64,000 nucleotides of DNA from Spirochaetae bacterium HGW-Spirochaetae-1 (GTDB lineage: Bacteria; Spirochaetota; UBA4802; UBA5550): the NCBI GenBank assembly GCA_002839375.1, contig PGXY01000007.1, positions 372,001 to 436,000 of the forward strand, read 5' to 3'. Under the pieces are notes generated by a model. It searched no databases and was not told the DNA's origin. It saw only the letters and a list, made by a program, of their open reading frames with translations. Every line of letters starts with the position of its first letter. Position 1 is the first letter of the stretch. This document shows, piece by piece, positions 50,244 through 58,477 of this stretch. A program made the position numbers and the translations under genes.

Positions 50244-50380
50244 TTGTATACCGAAAACAGGGAAAGGTTATTAAAAGAGAAATTTTTATGTTGCCATGTT
50301 TCACTTGTTATTGTAGTATTGCACCATATATTAAAATATTAACCATAAACAGAATGAATAAAATTAGGAGGATATGCACA

Positions 50381-51202
50381 ATGAAAATGTTCATCAGGAA
50401 TACCGTTACAACATTTGTTCTTGTATTATTTATTTCCCTGGTTTCGGGAAATGCCTTTGCCGAGGCCTTCAAGAGTCCCAGTTTCGGAGGGACAACGGGA
50501 CTTGTTTCCACACCCACGGCCAATACGGGATGGGAGGACGCCAAGATCGGCCTTGATGTCGGGTATCATTATATCAACAACGATAATGATGACAGCTCTC
50601 ACATACCCAAGGTTACGCTGCAGCTCTTCAACATCTGGGAACTGGGAGTAGCCTTTGATCTCCAGGACCGCGCCGCGCAAGATGAAAACGATATGATCCT
50701 TCACACAAAAATCAATTTTTACAATGCGGGATCATCGGCCCTGGCCATTGGTGGCAACCTGCAATTCATCGACATGGGAAGGGACGATGGCGAACCCAAC
50801 GGAGGCTATGCCGATCATGGAACATATGGACAGCTCTACATGGCCGTGACCTACAGCGGCAACTTCTTTTCCATGCCGGCCGAGACCACCCTGGTTGTGG
50901 GAAAAACCTTTGGAGATAACTACGACAACAGCAACATCGACTTCTCCATGGGCTTTGACCTGAACCTCCTGCCCCAGTATCTTAAAGGATACGTTCACTG
51001 GATCAACGACTTTGCCAACTATTCATATAGTGTTGATGCCATGGGATCAAACAACTGGTACCGGGGCTGCTTCAACACGGGGATCCGGCTTGCCATTCTT
51101 AAGACCAGCCGGTACAAGTTCAACATTGACGTAATCATGACCGACGCACTGGACACGAACCGGGGCTTTGCCCTGGGAACTGCCTTCGGTCTGGCGTTCT
51201 AA
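50381..51202 (+). CDS. YjbH-like outer-membrane protein
   Basis: A 273-residue exported protein with AGGAGG before ATG 50381 and a signal peptide to about residue 27 (NAFAEA). The first mature segment, PSFGGTTGLVSTPTANTGWE, matches the opening of YjbH-like barrel domains; the remaining chain is strand-rich and ends in Phe (GTAFGLAF), as expected for an outer-membrane barrel. YjbH proteins accompany exopolysaccharide export in several bacteria, but no polysaccharide genes are nearby. A strong palindromic terminator follows. Confidence 0.75.
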   Translation: MKMFIRNTVTTFVLVLFISLVSGNAFAEAFKSPSFGGTTGLVSTPTANTGWEDAKIGLDVGYHYINNDNDDSSHIPKVTLQLFNIWELGVAFDLQDRAAQDENDMILHTKINFYNAGSSALAIGGNLQFIDMGRDDGEPNGGYADHGTYGQLYMAVTYSGNFFSMPAETTLVVGKTFGDNYDNSNIDFSMGFDLNLLPQYLKGYVHWINDFANYSYSVDAMGSNNWYRGCFNTGIRLAILKTSRYKFNIDVIMTDALDTNRGFALGTAFGLAF

Positions 51203-53069: not shown

Positions 53070-55847
53070 TTATTTCCCTACATATTCATCATTCTTAAAG
53101 CGTCCCTTGGCTATCTCATCACCATAGGTGTTATACAGGGTACCCTGCCCGTTGGCCCTGTTATCGCGATATTCGCCCACATATTTCTGGCCATCGGGCC
53201 AGGTGTATGTACCGATTCCGTGCCTCTTCCCATCCTTAAAATCACCCACATATACAGAGCCCGTGGCCCAGGTCAGAGTACCCTTCCCCTCCGGCTTGCC
53301 GTTTTTAAAATCACCGTTGTATTTCTGACCGTTGGGCCAGGAAAAGGAACCGACACCATGAGGCCGACCATCAAGCACATACCCCTCATATTTCCTGTTA
53401 TCAAACCATGTTATGGCTCCTTTGCCGTTGGGGCTCCCCTTCTTAAACTCGCCCACATAACGCTCTCCATCGGGCCATACCTGTACACCCTTTCCCTCGA
53501 TCTCGTTATTTTTAAAATCACCGGAATACTTTTTACCGTCCCGCCAGGTCATAGTCCCGGTTCCATGCATGTTTCCCCGGTCGAAATCCCCTTCATATCG
53601 ACGTCCGTCCTTCCAGGTCATGATCCCTTTTCCGTTGGGTACCCTGTCCTTTAAATCTCCTGAGTATTCCGTACCATCGGGCCAGATAAGAATTCCCGGG
53701 CTGGCCGGCTCCCCATCGACAAAATTGCCCTTGTAGCTTTTACCATCGGACCAGGTGAGCATGCCCTGCCCGTGAGGAACACCGTTTTTGAACGAACCGG
53801 TATAGGATCGGCCGTCCTTCCATTTCATGGTGCCCGTACCGGAGGGTACACCATCCTCAAACACGCCAGTATAGGTCCTTCCATCGGTCCACACAATGGT
53901 CCCCTTTCCCGACGGTTTGCCCTCCTTGAATTCACCGACATACCGGGTGCCATCTTTCCATTTCATGACACCCTCACCATGAGGCTCGCCATTGAGGTAC
54001 TGGCCGGAATAAGTTCTGCCGTCACTCCAACGCATAACACCCTTTCTGTCCGGTTCACCGTTTAAAAAATTTCCCGTATAACTGCGGCCGTCTTTCCAGG
54101 TCATGGTCCCGTTTCCATGGGGAACGCCGTTTTTAAACAACCCGGTGAACCGGCGACCATCCTTCCAGGTCATAGTCCCTTTGCCCTCGGGCAGCCCTTC
54201 CTTGAAATTTCCCGTGTATGTCTTTCCATCCAGCCATGTCATTCTTCCTACACCCTGGGGCTCACCGTTAAAAAATGTGCCGGTATAGGTGCGTCCATCA
54301 CTATAAGTCAGCGTTCCCTTGCCTTCAGGTTTTCCGTTTTTAAATTGTCCGGTATAAACCGTTCCATCGGGTTTCTCCAGGGTTCCCGAACCATGGGGTT
54401 TGCCGTGCATGAACTCACCTGAATATTTCGATTTGTCGGCAAAAATTTTAACTCCCCTGCCATGAGGTTCTCCATTGAGAAAGTCCCCTTCATACCGTGA
54501 TCCATCGGCCGACTCAAGCACGCCTTTCCCGCCGGGCAAACCGTTTTTCACCGCACCGGTATATTTGGAGCCGTCCTTATAGACAAATGTTCCCGTTCCA
54601 TGGGGTTTCCCGTCCTTAAACTGCCCGATATAGCGGGTCCCGTCGGCATAGGTAATGGTGCCGGATCCGTCGGGCTTCCCTTTTTTAAATTCACCCGTAT
54701 AAGCGGTACCGTCTTTATATGTTATAGTCCCCGTTCCTTCGGGAACGCCATTTTTAAAATCGCCTTCATACACGGACCCGTCGGCATGGGTCAGCTTCCC
54801 TTTTCCATCGGGAATATTATCCTTAAAGGTTCCCACATACTGTGATCCATCGGGGCTTATCCGCTCTCCTTTTCCGGTAAGCTTCCCATTGACAAAAGTT
54901 CCGGAGAGCACCGTACCATCGGCAAGAGTGAAAGTTCCTACTCCGTGGGGAAGACCGTTGCGAAATTCGCCCTTATAGGAGTCGCCGTTTTTCCAGGTAA
55001 TTTCACCGGAGCCGTGGGGTTTACCTCTTTCAAGCTCCCCCGTATAGACACTGCCGTCTCTCATTTTTATCGTACCACTGGGCCGCCCGTTATGAAACGT
55101 CCCCTCGTAACTGGAACCGTCGGAATATACCTGTTTGCCCGTTCCATGGGGTTTCCCGTCCTTAAACTGCCCGGTATAGCGGGTCCCGTCGGGTGCTGTC
55201 ATGGTGCCGCTTCCCTGCAACTCCCCGTTTATGAATGTCCCGACCAGAACAGTCCCGTCAGGCATGGTCTTTGTGCCGCTGCCATAGGGAACACCGTTTT
55301 TGAATTCGCCTGTATATTTTGATCCGTCAGGATAGGTGAGCACCCCTCTGCCGTGGGGAACACCATTGATGAAATCCCCCTCGTAAACAGAGCCGTCTTT
55401 TTTTGTCAGGACGCCCTTGCCATAAGGAAGGCCGTCTGCAAATTCACCGGTATAGATGGAACCATCGGGATTATATTGAGTTCCCATGCCATGTGGCCTT
55501 CCATCCCTGAATTCACCTACATATTTTGTGCCGTCGGGCAGTATTCTCGTCCCATGACCATGGGGTTTTCCGTCCTCGAAATCACCCTCATAAACAGTAC
55601 CCACGGGAAGCGTGAGTTTCCCCTTGCCATGAGGTTTCCCATCTTTAAAATTGCCCACATAAACCGACCCGTCGGGCATAATCATTTTACCATATCCATC
55701 GGGTACATCGCCGCGGAGCTGACCCGCGTACTTTGATCCATCGGGGAGAACCTTCATCTTCTCACCGTCCTGGGTCGTTTTACATGACAAGGACAGCAGA
55801 AAAAGTAAACAGACCAGAATAATGATAACCGGTGAATTTTTTTTCAT
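53070..55847 (-). CDS. MORN-repeat lipoprotein
   Basis: A 925-residue lipoprotein with 38 tandem MORN repeats plus one partial. Lipobox LSLSC follows MKKNSPVIIILVCLLFL. Each repeat is 23 residues with the pattern D-G-x-x-Y-x-G-x-F-x-x-G-x-P-x-G-x-G; repeat 10 is 21 residues. MORN repeats form beta-hairpin solenoids that bind membranes or proteins, so this is probably a long rigid rod attached to a membrane. The ATG at 55847 is chosen with AGAGG about 8 bases upstream; 55853 is possible. It stands alone. Confidence 0.88.
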   Translation of the reverse strand: MKKNSPVIIILVCLLFLLSLSCKTTQDGEKMKVLPDGSKYAGQLRGDVPDGYGKMIMPDGSVYVGNFKDGKPHGKGKLTLPVGTVYEGDFEDGKPHGHGTRILPDGTKYVGEFRDGRPHGMGTQYNPDGSIYTGEFADGLPYGKGVLTKKDGSVYEGDFINGVPHGRGVLTYPDGSKYTGEFKNGVPYGSGTKTMPDGTVLVGTFINGELQGSGTMTAPDGTRYTGQFKDGKPHGTGKQVYSDGSSYEGTFHNGRPSGTIKMRDGSVYTGELERGKPHGSGEITWKNGDSYKGEFRNGLPHGVGTFTLADGTVLSGTFVNGKLTGKGERISPDGSQYVGTFKDNIPDGKGKLTHADGSVYEGDFKNGVPEGTGTITYKDGTAYTGEFKKGKPDGSGTITYADGTRYIGQFKDGKPHGTGTFVYKDGSKYTGAVKNGLPGGKGVLESADGSRYEGDFLNGEPHGRGVKIFADKSKYSGEFMHGKPHGSGTLEKPDGTVYTGQFKNGKPEGKGTLTYSDGRTYTGTFFNGEPQGVGRMTWLDGKTYTGNFKEGLPEGKGTMTWKDGRRFTGLFKNGVPHGNGTMTWKDGRSYTGNFLNGEPDRKGVMRWSDGRTYSGQYLNGEPHGEGVMKWKDGTRYVGEFKEGKPSGKGTIVWTDGRTYTGVFEDGVPSGTGTMKWKDGRSYTGSFKNGVPHGQGMLTWSDGKSYKGNFVDGEPASPGILIWPDGTEYSGDLKDRVPNGKGIMTWKDGRRYEGDFDRGNMHGTGTMTWRDGKKYSGDFKNNEIEGKGVQVWPDGERYVGEFKKGSPNGKGAITWFDNRKYEGYVLDGRPHGVGSFSWPNGQKYNGDFKNGKPEGKGTLTWATGSVYVGDFKDGKRHGIGTYTWPDGQKYVGEYRDNRANGQGTLYNTYGDEIAKGRFKNDEYVGK

Positions 55848-56058
55848 TAACATCGACCTCTGTAATTTATGGTTTTTATTGATAATTATCGAAGACACGT
55901 ATTTGCAGATTCCTTCTTGACCTTACCTCTATTAAAATATTTGTCAAGATATATGCTCCAAATTCTCTAATTATTTTTTAATTGACTGGGGTAACAACTT
56001 CATTTACTCTCAGATTATATGCGGCCTGGTATGCAACCGGACTACGCCGGAAGCATTT

Positions 56059-56143: not shown

Positions 56144-58477
56144 ATGATGAATGCCGAGCAGAAAAACGGGCAGAAAATAACAAAACCAAAAAAAAAGATG
56201 AAACTCAAAGTAAAAATCACAGGATTGAAAAACAGTTTCATCGCCTATTTTTTTGAAGACAGTATTGGAAGCAGGGCATATAATAAATACCTCTCCAGGC
56301 TGATAACCGTCGTAAAGGTTTTCTTCATATCTACTCGCAAATTCCTGGCCGATGAATGTCTCACCAAGGCTTCATCAATAACCTATACTATTATTGTTTC
56401 ATTGGTGCCCACGCTCACGGTGGTACTCACCTTCTATTCGATTTTCTCAGGGGTGGGCGATAAAAAGGAAGATCTTTTTAAAAATATTTCCCTCTTTATG
56501 CTTGAGCACAATATAAAACTTAACATTGACTTCCTTTTCGCAGCCATCTCGGACCTGATCGAGAACGCGGAAGCAATCGGAGGCATCAGCGCCGCCATCA
56601 TGATTTTTTCTGCAACAGCCATGCTCAGATCTCTGGAGAAAAGCCTTAACGACATCTGGAAAATAAAAAAGCAGCGTCCCCTGGTTCTGAAAGTAGTATA
56701 TTACTGGGCGGCCCTGACCCTGGGACCGGTAATGCTCATTGCCGGCACGACCGTTGCCGCCCAGGTTTCCGAACTCTTCTCGGCACCCCACTGCCGTTCA
56801 GCCTCTTTCGACGACGCCGGCAACATCTGGACGACGGGAACAAAGGCAAGAATACAGTACTCGCCGACACAAAAACTACAGCTGACTACAATCACCGATG
56901 ACAAAATAGATTTTGACAACCAGAAGGCCTATCAATTCATCGCCGGTGAGAAAGTATTCAAACAGCAGGAACTGGGAATAGACATACTGGAATACAAAAA
57001 AATCAGGTTCAACGATATCCAGTTCATTGACAACGAGGGATGGATAGTCGGCAGCCAGGGGATTGTCATGCACACGGCGAATGGGGGAAAGACCTGGAGC
57101 CTTCGAAAATGGGGCGTTTTTTCCATTAACGACATACACATGCTGGACATACGCCGCGGCTTCATGGCATCGGATAATGGAATAATACTTGAAACGGAAG
57201 ACGGCGGTAAAACATGGAAGGTCCTGGAGTGGGAAGGCGTTGTTAATAATTTTTCATCAATCAGCTTTTTCAACAACAGGGGAATAATAACGGGGAGCGG
57301 TGGTATCATTCTTTACACGGCCGATGCCGGTAAAAAATGGCAGCTCATGAATATCAAGGAGGCCCGCCGCAAGGACAGGCCCATTAATTTAAACAGCGCG
57401 TTTTTCGTCAATGAAAACGTCATATGGCTCATGGGGAACGAGGGGGTGATGCTGAAAAGCACCGATGGCGGTAAAAGCTGGAAAAACCTGAAGTTCAAGG
57501 AAATAAATTACCATTACTGCTACTTCTTCAATGAAAAAGAGGGGATGGTCGTGGGGACCAAGGGAACCGTGACAACCACCGTCGACGGCGGTGAAAACTG
57601 GGTAGTTAACGAACTGCCCACATACCAGATTAACAAACTGATCCACCGGCAGGGCCTGTTCTGCGCCGTAGGTGACAACGGCATGATAATGCTGTCAAAG
57701 GACCGGGGAAAAACCTGGAACGGCACGGAAGGAAAAAGCATCATTGCGTTCCTCATTAATTTCCTGGCCCCCTTTATCATCATCTGGCTCTTGTTCTTCC
57801 TGTGCTACCTCACCCTTCCCAACACAAAAATACCGGTTAAGGACGCAATGCTCGGGTCAGCCTTCACCGGAGCAGTCTGGGTAATATTCATCCTGTCCTT
57901 CATCGTATATGTCAAGGCATTCGCCCGGGGAACCTTTGCCGTATACGGCGCCCTGGCGTCGATCCCTCTTTTCCTTCTCATGATCTATGCCTCGGCAGTC
58001 ATCATCCTCTACGGTGCCGAGGTGTCATACACGCTCATGCATCCCGAAACATACCGGGATCTGAAACGGGCCTTAAAGGGAAAAGTCGAGACACATGTCT
58101 ATTACGGCATCGCCATTCTGCACCATATATATGAAAAATTCGAAAGCGGCAAGGGGGCGGCGAGTTTCAACGAAATACTGAAGGTATGCTCCAACAACAC
58201 GGAAGAGGTGGATTTATTCCTCGCCATGTTTGTCAGGGACGGCATCATTGTTCAGAAAGACGAAACGGAATATATTCCGGCTAACGCCTCGGAGAATATC
58301 CTGCTTGCCAATATCATCGACAATATACACGACATCAGCCTGCATATCCCTGGAGCAAATAGAAAATCGCCACTCAGGGATTACCTGGAAACCATGTTTA
58401 AAAATATGAAAGATAGCAGAAGCAAGGTTCTTGGAACCACGACACTGAAAGACGTCATTTCGCACAGCAAGGGTTAG
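56144..58477 (+). CDS. YihY-family membrane protein with inserted Ycf48-like propeller
   Basis: A 777-residue inner-membrane protein. YihY/BrkB-family parts are seen on both sides of an insert: N-terminal TKASSITYTIIVSLVPTL and SLEKSLNDIWKIKK, and later CYLTLPNTKIPVKDAMLG, then FAVYGALASIPLFLLMIYAS and ILYGAEVSY. Between residues of about 214 and 528 is an insert with six Asp-box motifs of the type DGGKTW (TANGGKTW, TEDGGKTW, TADAGKKW, TDGGKSW, VDGGENW, DRGKTW), as in BNR/Ycf48 propellers. A winged-helix-like C terminus follows. GGAG precedes ATG 56144. Family function is poorly known; old 'ribonuclease BN' naming for YihY is not supported. Confidence 0.88.
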   Translation: MMNAEQKNGQKITKPKKKMKLKVKITGLKNSFIAYFFEDSIGSRAYNKYLSRLITVVKVFFISTRKFLADECLTKASSITYTIIVSLVPTLTVVLTFYSIFSGVGDKKEDLFKNISLFMLEHNIKLNIDFLFAAISDLIENAEAIGGISAAIMIFSATAMLRSLEKSLNDIWKIKKQRPLVLKVVYYWAALTLGPVMLIAGTTVAAQVSELFSAPHCRSASFDDAGNIWTTGTKARIQYSPTQKLQLTTITDDKIDFDNQKAYQFIAGEKVFKQQELGIDILEYKKIRFNDIQFIDNEGWIVGSQGIVMHTANGGKTWSLRKWGVFSINDIHMLDIRRGFMASDNGIILETEDGGKTWKVLEWEGVVNNFSSISFFNNRGIITGSGGIILYTADAGKKWQLMNIKEARRKDRPINLNSAFFVNENVIWLMGNEGVMLKSTDGGKSWKNLKFKEINYHYCYFFNEKEGMVVGTKGTVTTTVDGGENWVVNELPTYQINKLIHRQGLFCAVGDNGMIMLSKDRGKTWNGTEGKSIIAFLINFLAPFIIIWLLFFLCYLTLPNTKIPVKDAMLGSAFTGAVWVIFILSFIVYVKAFARGTFAVYGALASIPLFLLMIYASAVIILYGAEVSYTLMHPETYRDLKRALKGKVETHVYYGIAILHHIYEKFESGKGAASFNEILKVCSNNTEEVDLFLAMFVRDGIIVQKDETEYIPANASENILLANIIDNIHDISLHIPGANRKSPLRDYLETMFKNMKDSRSKVLGTTTLKDVISHSKG

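Follow-up and report, generated by a model that had tools for sequence, protein, structure and literature searches.

A Ycf48-like propeller inserted into the YihY/BrkB membrane core: a fused architecture of spirochaetes

Background

What does a propeller do in the middle of the membrane core of a YihY/BrkB protein? YihY proteins occur in most bacteria, and their old label of RNase BN is wrong. The question is raised by a gene of Spirochaetae bacterium HGW-Spirochaetae-1, found in a stretch of 64,000 nucleotides (contig PGXY01000007.1, positions 372,001 to 436,000) that we call the window. An original prediction, made from this stretch alone, held that a YihY-type protein is split in frame there by a Ycf48/BNR-like propeller.

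The YihY relative YhjD of E. coli binds core-lipid A and co-purifies with LptB, and its loss leads to a defect in LPS transport (PMC3219608). Ycf48 docks on D1, which is a precedent for propellers as platforms for membrane proteins. A patch of six arginines binds D1 in Ycf48 of Syn6803 (R180, R196, R215, R219, R220, and R237) (PMC10403576). A search of the open literature found no paper joining YihY with Ycf48 or with a propeller. In this work we describe the anatomy of the fused protein, its distribution and origin, and the functions that can be proposed for it.

Results

A YihY-family protein with three modules

The features of the gene are listed in Table 1. A GGAG stands just 5' of its start codon (ATG 56144). 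An alternative start, TTG 56111, would give a protein of 788 aa. In the Pfam scan PF03631 (BrkB/YihY) matches the 777-aa protein in two pieces with a total E-value of 4.9e-42 and a score of 144.8 bits against a cut-off of 33.7. NCBIfam agrees with Pfam: TIGR00765 scores 109.3 against a cut-off of 73.15. PF14870 (PSII_BNR/Ycf48) sits between the two pieces of PF03631, with an E-value of 3.9e-35 in a scan limited to residues 214-528.

By the curated cut-offs, and with both halves of the core matched, the protein is classified by its sequence as a member of the YihY family. The domain searches with the whole protein and with the insert alone thus bear out the in-frame split, and the predicted limits of the insert are right to within one residue. 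The original prediction stands as regards the split core and the propeller. Its counts of membrane helices and of blades have to be amended, and it overlooked the C-terminal domain. The protein is a clade-specific inner-membrane protein of three modules: a YihY core, a propeller, and a winged helix.

Table 1. Features of the fused gene in the window (coordinates are positions in the window; res, residues of the 777-aa protein)
Feature	Position	Strand	Basis
Fused YihY-propeller-Rrf2-like gene	56144..58477	+	777 aa, one uninterrupted frame
YihY/BrkB core, first half (res 51-212)	56294..56779	+	PF03631, TIGR00765; hydropathy, model, homologue alignment
Predicted TM1 (~75-101), TM2 (~144-175), TM3 (~180-212)	first core half	+	hydropathy, model
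Predicted seven-bladed Ycf48/BNR-type propeller, periplasmic (res 213-528)	56780..57727	+	PF14870, model, Foldseek, VIA, topology
D256-x-x-N259-Q260 motif, N-terminal part of propeller, no Asp-box	56909..56923	+	conservation
Six canonical Asp-boxes (res 311, 351, 392, 439, 479, 518)	57074..57718	+	strict motif scan
YihY/BrkB core, second half (res 533-633)	57740..58042	+	PF03631 positions 151-255 at res 527-631; model
Predicted TM4 (~533-557), TM5 (~565-594), TM6 (~599-632)	second core half	+	model
Predicted cytoplasmic Rrf2/IscR/CymR-like winged-helix domain (res 640-777)	58061..58474	+	profile vs PDB, Foldseek, VIA

The insert is a Ycf48-like propeller

Six evenly spaced Asp-boxes, about 40 residues apart in about 315 residues, had been noticed in the insert. 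The strict motif scan recovers all six, with spacings of 40, 41, 47, 40, and 39 residues. In 20,000 shuffles of the insert, by comparison, Asp-boxes number 0.005 on average and one at most. At the N-terminal end there is a seventh blade, whose only box is degenerate and lies near residue 240. The 27 strands of the insert model fit seven blades. The number of blades had been given as six or seven; the model and the structure matches give seven, one of them with the degenerate box.

In the AlphaFold2 model, built from a six-sequence alignment, the pLDDT of the propeller is mostly 75-92. A Foldseek search of the PDB with the propeller model returned Ycf48 in all of the top 12 matches (E-values of 3e-13 to 4e-11). 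VIA-align gave Z-scores of about 26-27 to many propellers over residues 214-524, among them 26.5 to a designed seven-bladed propeller (rmsd 2.6, 265 aligned). The nearest solved proteins by sequence are likewise Ycf48 (2xbg/5ojr, E-value 9e-25). The insert is therefore predicted with good confidence to be a seven-bladed propeller. A structure prediction had been suggested as a check of this reading, and it did not refute it.

The insert shares with Ycf48/HCF136 (PF14870; PDB 2xbg, 5ojr, 8am5) the seven-bladed Asp-box propeller and the extracytoplasmic location, at about 20% identity. However, Ycf48/HCF136 are free or lipid-anchored, whereas this propeller is embedded in a loop of a membrane protein, has neither a lipobox nor a signal peptide of its own, and has no photosystem to serve. 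In the sequence alignment four of the six positions of the Arg patch are not Arg, and only R219 and R220 coincide. The corresponding RR pair (408-409) is basic only within the order of the studied organism and is not kept across the clade. We thus rejected the identification of the insert as Ycf48 proper, given the four differing patch residues and the missing lipobox. The insert belongs to the Ycf48-like propellers, and the likeness is one of fold and sequence family only.

Within the organism's own order the conservation of the propeller is 0.54 versus 0.76-0.79 for the core, with glycines, Asp-box residues, and D256/N259/Q260 as exceptions. D256 is 93% conserved across the whole fused clade, and N259 and Q260 are at least 95% conserved in the own order. 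With conservation thus below that of the core, the propeller shows no fixed catalytic site.

Membrane core and topology

Hydropathy, the model, and the homologue alignment put the insert between TM3 and TM4 of the six-helix core. Plain homologues (from Bacteroidota, Desulfobacterota, and others) have about 15 residues at this place, where the fused protein has about 320. The earlier placement between the fourth and fifth membrane portions does not hold unless the interfacial helix of residues 43-68 is counted.

We compared the fractions of K+R in the loops of 57 fused homologues. They are 0.19 in the N-terminal tail, 0.18 in the TM2-3 loop, 0.16 in the TM4-5 loop, and 0.17 in the C-terminal tail. 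On the other side they are 0.10 in the TM1-2 loop, 0.12 in the insert, and 0.09 in the TM5-6 loop. According to the positive-inside rule, this bias places the insert in the periplasm and the N- and C-terminus in the cytoplasm, in agreement with the claim that the propeller lies in a single extracytoplasmic loop. Hydropathy, the model helices, and the charge bias over the 57 homologues thus predict six membrane helices with the N- and C-terminus inside.

The membrane core is poorly modelled in the whole-protein AlphaFold2 model from the six-sequence alignment (pLDDT about 35-60), and we make no claim on how the propeller is placed relative to it. A sequence search found no solved structure related to the YihY core.

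The fused protein resembles YihY/BrkB proteins (UPF0761; YihY and YhjD of E. coli) in its six-helix core and family motifs, and it scores above the cut-offs of both family models. Unlike the usual members, it has a core interrupted after TM3 by the propeller, which is compatible with the family models as they do not require an uninterrupted core, and it has a long C-terminal winged-helix domain. The architecture is a variant of a known family, without a description found in the searchable literature.

The C-terminal domain is Rrf2-like

No significant Pfam match was found for residues 640-777. A profile built from 20 YihY C-termini and searched against the PDB matched 4cic (E-value 2.9e-10), CymR 2y75 (2.3e-8), and IscR (8e-4) over nearly the whole domain. 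A separate model of the domain (mean pLDDT 70) gave IscR and CymR, of the Rrf2 family, as the top rows of both Foldseek and VIA, with a VIA Z-score of about 12 to the Rrf2 family versus about 8 for the next families. By profile and model, the predicted fold is an Rrf2-type winged helix with a C-terminal dimerisation helix.

The likeness to the Rrf2 regulators IscR and CymR (PDB 4cic, 2y75, 3t8r) extends over the whole domain in both fold and profile, including the C-terminal helix. Unlike these regulators, the domain is tethered to the membrane. The alignment to 4cic shows a shortened loop and no RG..GG wing motif. Since this motif is absent, the sequence makes DNA binding by the domain doubtful.

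A core followed by a C-terminal domain is also the layout of the model PRK04214/NF003256, "ribonuclease BN/unknown domain fusion protein", whose C-terminal part matches in L050 and L059. Nevertheless, the fused protein falls far below the cut-off of this model, which does not include a propeller. YihYs of other phyla that lack the propeller have the winged helix too. The C-termini of five plain YihYs (L035, L036, L037, L038, and L103) are likewise Rrf2/IscR/CymR-like winged helices. The "unknown domain" of long YihYs (NF003256 type) is an Rrf2-like fold that is seemingly unnamed in Pfam and NCBIfam.

A different module stands at the same end in four YihYs from other spirochaetes (L102, L106, L114, and L115; families f24, f43, and f35). 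These proteins end in a cyclic-nucleotide-binding domain, PF00027, with E-values of 6e-20 to 1e-10.

Distribution, single origin, and one loss of the propeller

The whole protein was used as the query in a search of 393 Spirochaetota genomes. Matches to both core and insert came from all seven families that were sampled in the own order and from five others, and were later confirmed by extracting the proteins. The insert is 320-392 residues long in all 39 fused proteins inspected, which come from 12 spirochaete families. Distant fused proteins have fewer Asp-boxes. PF14870 or BNR was found in every fused protein scanned, weakly in family f34. The propeller has stayed intact in the 12 families, even where identity falls to about 21%.

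Among the matches listed from other spirochaete families, the core has no such interruption. Narrow patterns, scanned over 84,980 species genomes with shallow coverage outside Spirochaetota, gave one fused relative, itself a spirochaete. The original prediction had tentatively linked the architecture with spirochaetes, and in this survey of YihY homologues the fusion is typical of them, whereas plain homologues are uninterrupted. The genome of the studied organism also encodes a plain YihY of 322 aa; no other Ycf48-like protein was found in it.

The core tree was built without the insert columns and has 39 fused rows; in it, the fused proteins and one loss make up a single group (SH-aLRT 95). 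The fused/unfused label changes twice in all, versus about 26 times in shuffles. The divergences of core and propeller correlate (Spearman 0.90), as expected from shared descent. The fusion arose once in a large group of spirochaetes and was then retained vertically across at least 12 families.

One fused YihY, L045 (genome G040, coded f11), groups in the core tree with f22, f38, and f41, apart from the other f11 sequences. This placement possibly reflects a transfer or an odd group code.

The single loss is clean. In L059 (G112) seven residues remain between TM3 and TM4, there is no N in the gene, and the genus and the neighbouring genes are the same as in fused relatives. This orthologue shows that the core can persist when the propeller is gone.

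An assembly merge was considered unlikely from the start. We reject it, as the fused form recurs in 39 proteins of 12 families that make up one clade, with a clean loss in a syntenic context. We also looked for homologues split into two genes. The sole candidate, L060 (G180), is an N-filled assembly gap with a local misassembly, so no homologue is truly two genes.

Neighbouring genes

No operon partner conserved across the fused clade was found. In the own order, the conserved downstream genes (TonB-C-like, sugar nucleotidyltransferase, EF-G) are convergent, lying on the opposite strand to the fused gene, and the conserved upstream neighbour, RarA, is also on the other strand. In two LPS-bearing genera of f38 an OstA/LptA-like lipoprotein-type gene lies directly upstream on the same strand (L043:3912-5513 and L047:8052-9695). 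In family f34 (L053, L054, L055, L057, and L080) the fused YihY is preceded by a gene for a predicted membrane-anchored F5/8-type-C protein (discoidin-like, PF25302-like), which touches or overlaps it in L054, L055, and L057. This protein is a possible extracytoplasmic partner.

Two further observations concern the surroundings of the gene. Adjoining it in the window (53070-55898, minus strand) is a gene for a 942-aa protein with a signal-like N-terminus. MORN repeats, matched in 37 stretches, make up nearly all of this protein, whose gene is not a conserved neighbour. The gene at 50288-51202 (plus strand) and L044:5221-5985, which immediately precedes the fused YihY of G048, represent a family of about 255-304 aa, without a Pfam match and with 43% identity. 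Its members are possibly outer-membrane proteins.

The fusion is independent of LPS

No LpxC, LptF/G, or Pfam TamB was found in the own genome, which encodes Omp85 proteins. The organism is apparently a diderm without lipid A. Most members of the own order have the fusion but no LpxC, which is retained in some families of this order. LpxC is present in fusion-bearing relatives of f5, f7, f11, f22, f34, f38, and f41. We rejected a role of the fused YihY in LPS or lipid A handling in the studied organism. As its genome has no LpxC or LptF/G, the substrate here, if it is a lipid, cannot be lipid A.

Discussion

The reading that we favour, tentatively and at somewhat less than even probability, is a lipid-handling core combined with two further parts: a propeller in the periplasm that serves as a platform for docking or recognition, and a regulatory domain in the cytoplasm. 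The six-helix core would handle a membrane lipid or a lipid-linked envelope precursor, by analogy with YhjD only. The propeller, a closed ring joined directly to TM3 at one end and to TM4 at the other, would sit on the periplasmic side of the core and might dock a periplasmic partner or recognise the head group of the substrate. The Rrf2-like domain would most likely be a dimerisation or regulatory module. The suggested link to lipids draws on two neighbouring genes and on a single paper about YhjD, in which the range of assays was narrow.

It was suggested with the original prediction that YihY helps to assemble or monitor something outside the membrane; such an assembly role is possible for the fused form. 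A specific version of this idea, that the propeller aids assembly of a membrane or outer-membrane complex as Ycf48 does and YihY is its anchor, seems unlikely to us. All of the nearest solved relatives are Ycf48, but the Arg patch is mostly replaced and its RR pair is basic in the own order only. Moreover, lipobox, signal peptide, and photosystem are missing, and a full six-TM core would be an odd anchor for a scaffold.

Somewhat less probable is transmembrane signalling, in which a ligand in the periplasm would be sensed by the propeller and the signal relayed through the YihY helices to the Rrf2-like domain, whose target would be DNA or a regulator. An extracytoplasmic propeller and a cytoplasmic transcription-factor fold are indeed joined in one chain, and the PF00027 C-termini of other spirochaete YihYs indicate that regulatory modules recur at that end. 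However, the missing wing motif and shortened loop argue against it. The winged helix of propeller-less YihYs in other phyla also means that it did not arrive jointly with the sensor.

We give a slightly lower chance still to a one-piece envelope regulator. Its propeller would read an envelope component, the core would move or gate a lipid, and the Rrf2-like domain would adjust activity or expression. If so, the lineages with the C-terminal cyclic-nucleotide-binding domain would use a different input.

A neutral insertion, with a functionless propeller tolerated in a permissive loop, is improbable. The clean loss in L059 and the modest conservation of the propeller are consistent with it. Nevertheless, a functionless domain of 320 residues would be expected to decay or vanish often, whereas the propeller is intact in 12 families and carries clade-specific conserved residues. 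Least probable of all is a membrane-attached carbohydrate-active BNR enzyme (sialidase- or GH74-like), which the BNR/Asp-box family, a GH74 among the structural matches, and a weak, below-cut-off NCBIfam match to the F510_1955 glycosylhydrolase would favour, but which is opposed by the fact that, D256 excepted, no acidic or Arg triad is conserved beyond the structural positions, and by the far better matches to non-enzymatic Ycf48 propellers.

That lineages without LPS have retained the fusion argues that the substrate of the YihY family is broader than lipid A. A periplasmic docking-type domain combined with an Rrf2-like or cyclic-nucleotide-binding C-terminus suggests that the YihY core may work as a regulated machine that has a partner beyond the inner membrane. 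The long-kept fusion is a new handle on what YihY does, and the natural loss of the propeller in one species helps to make this testable.
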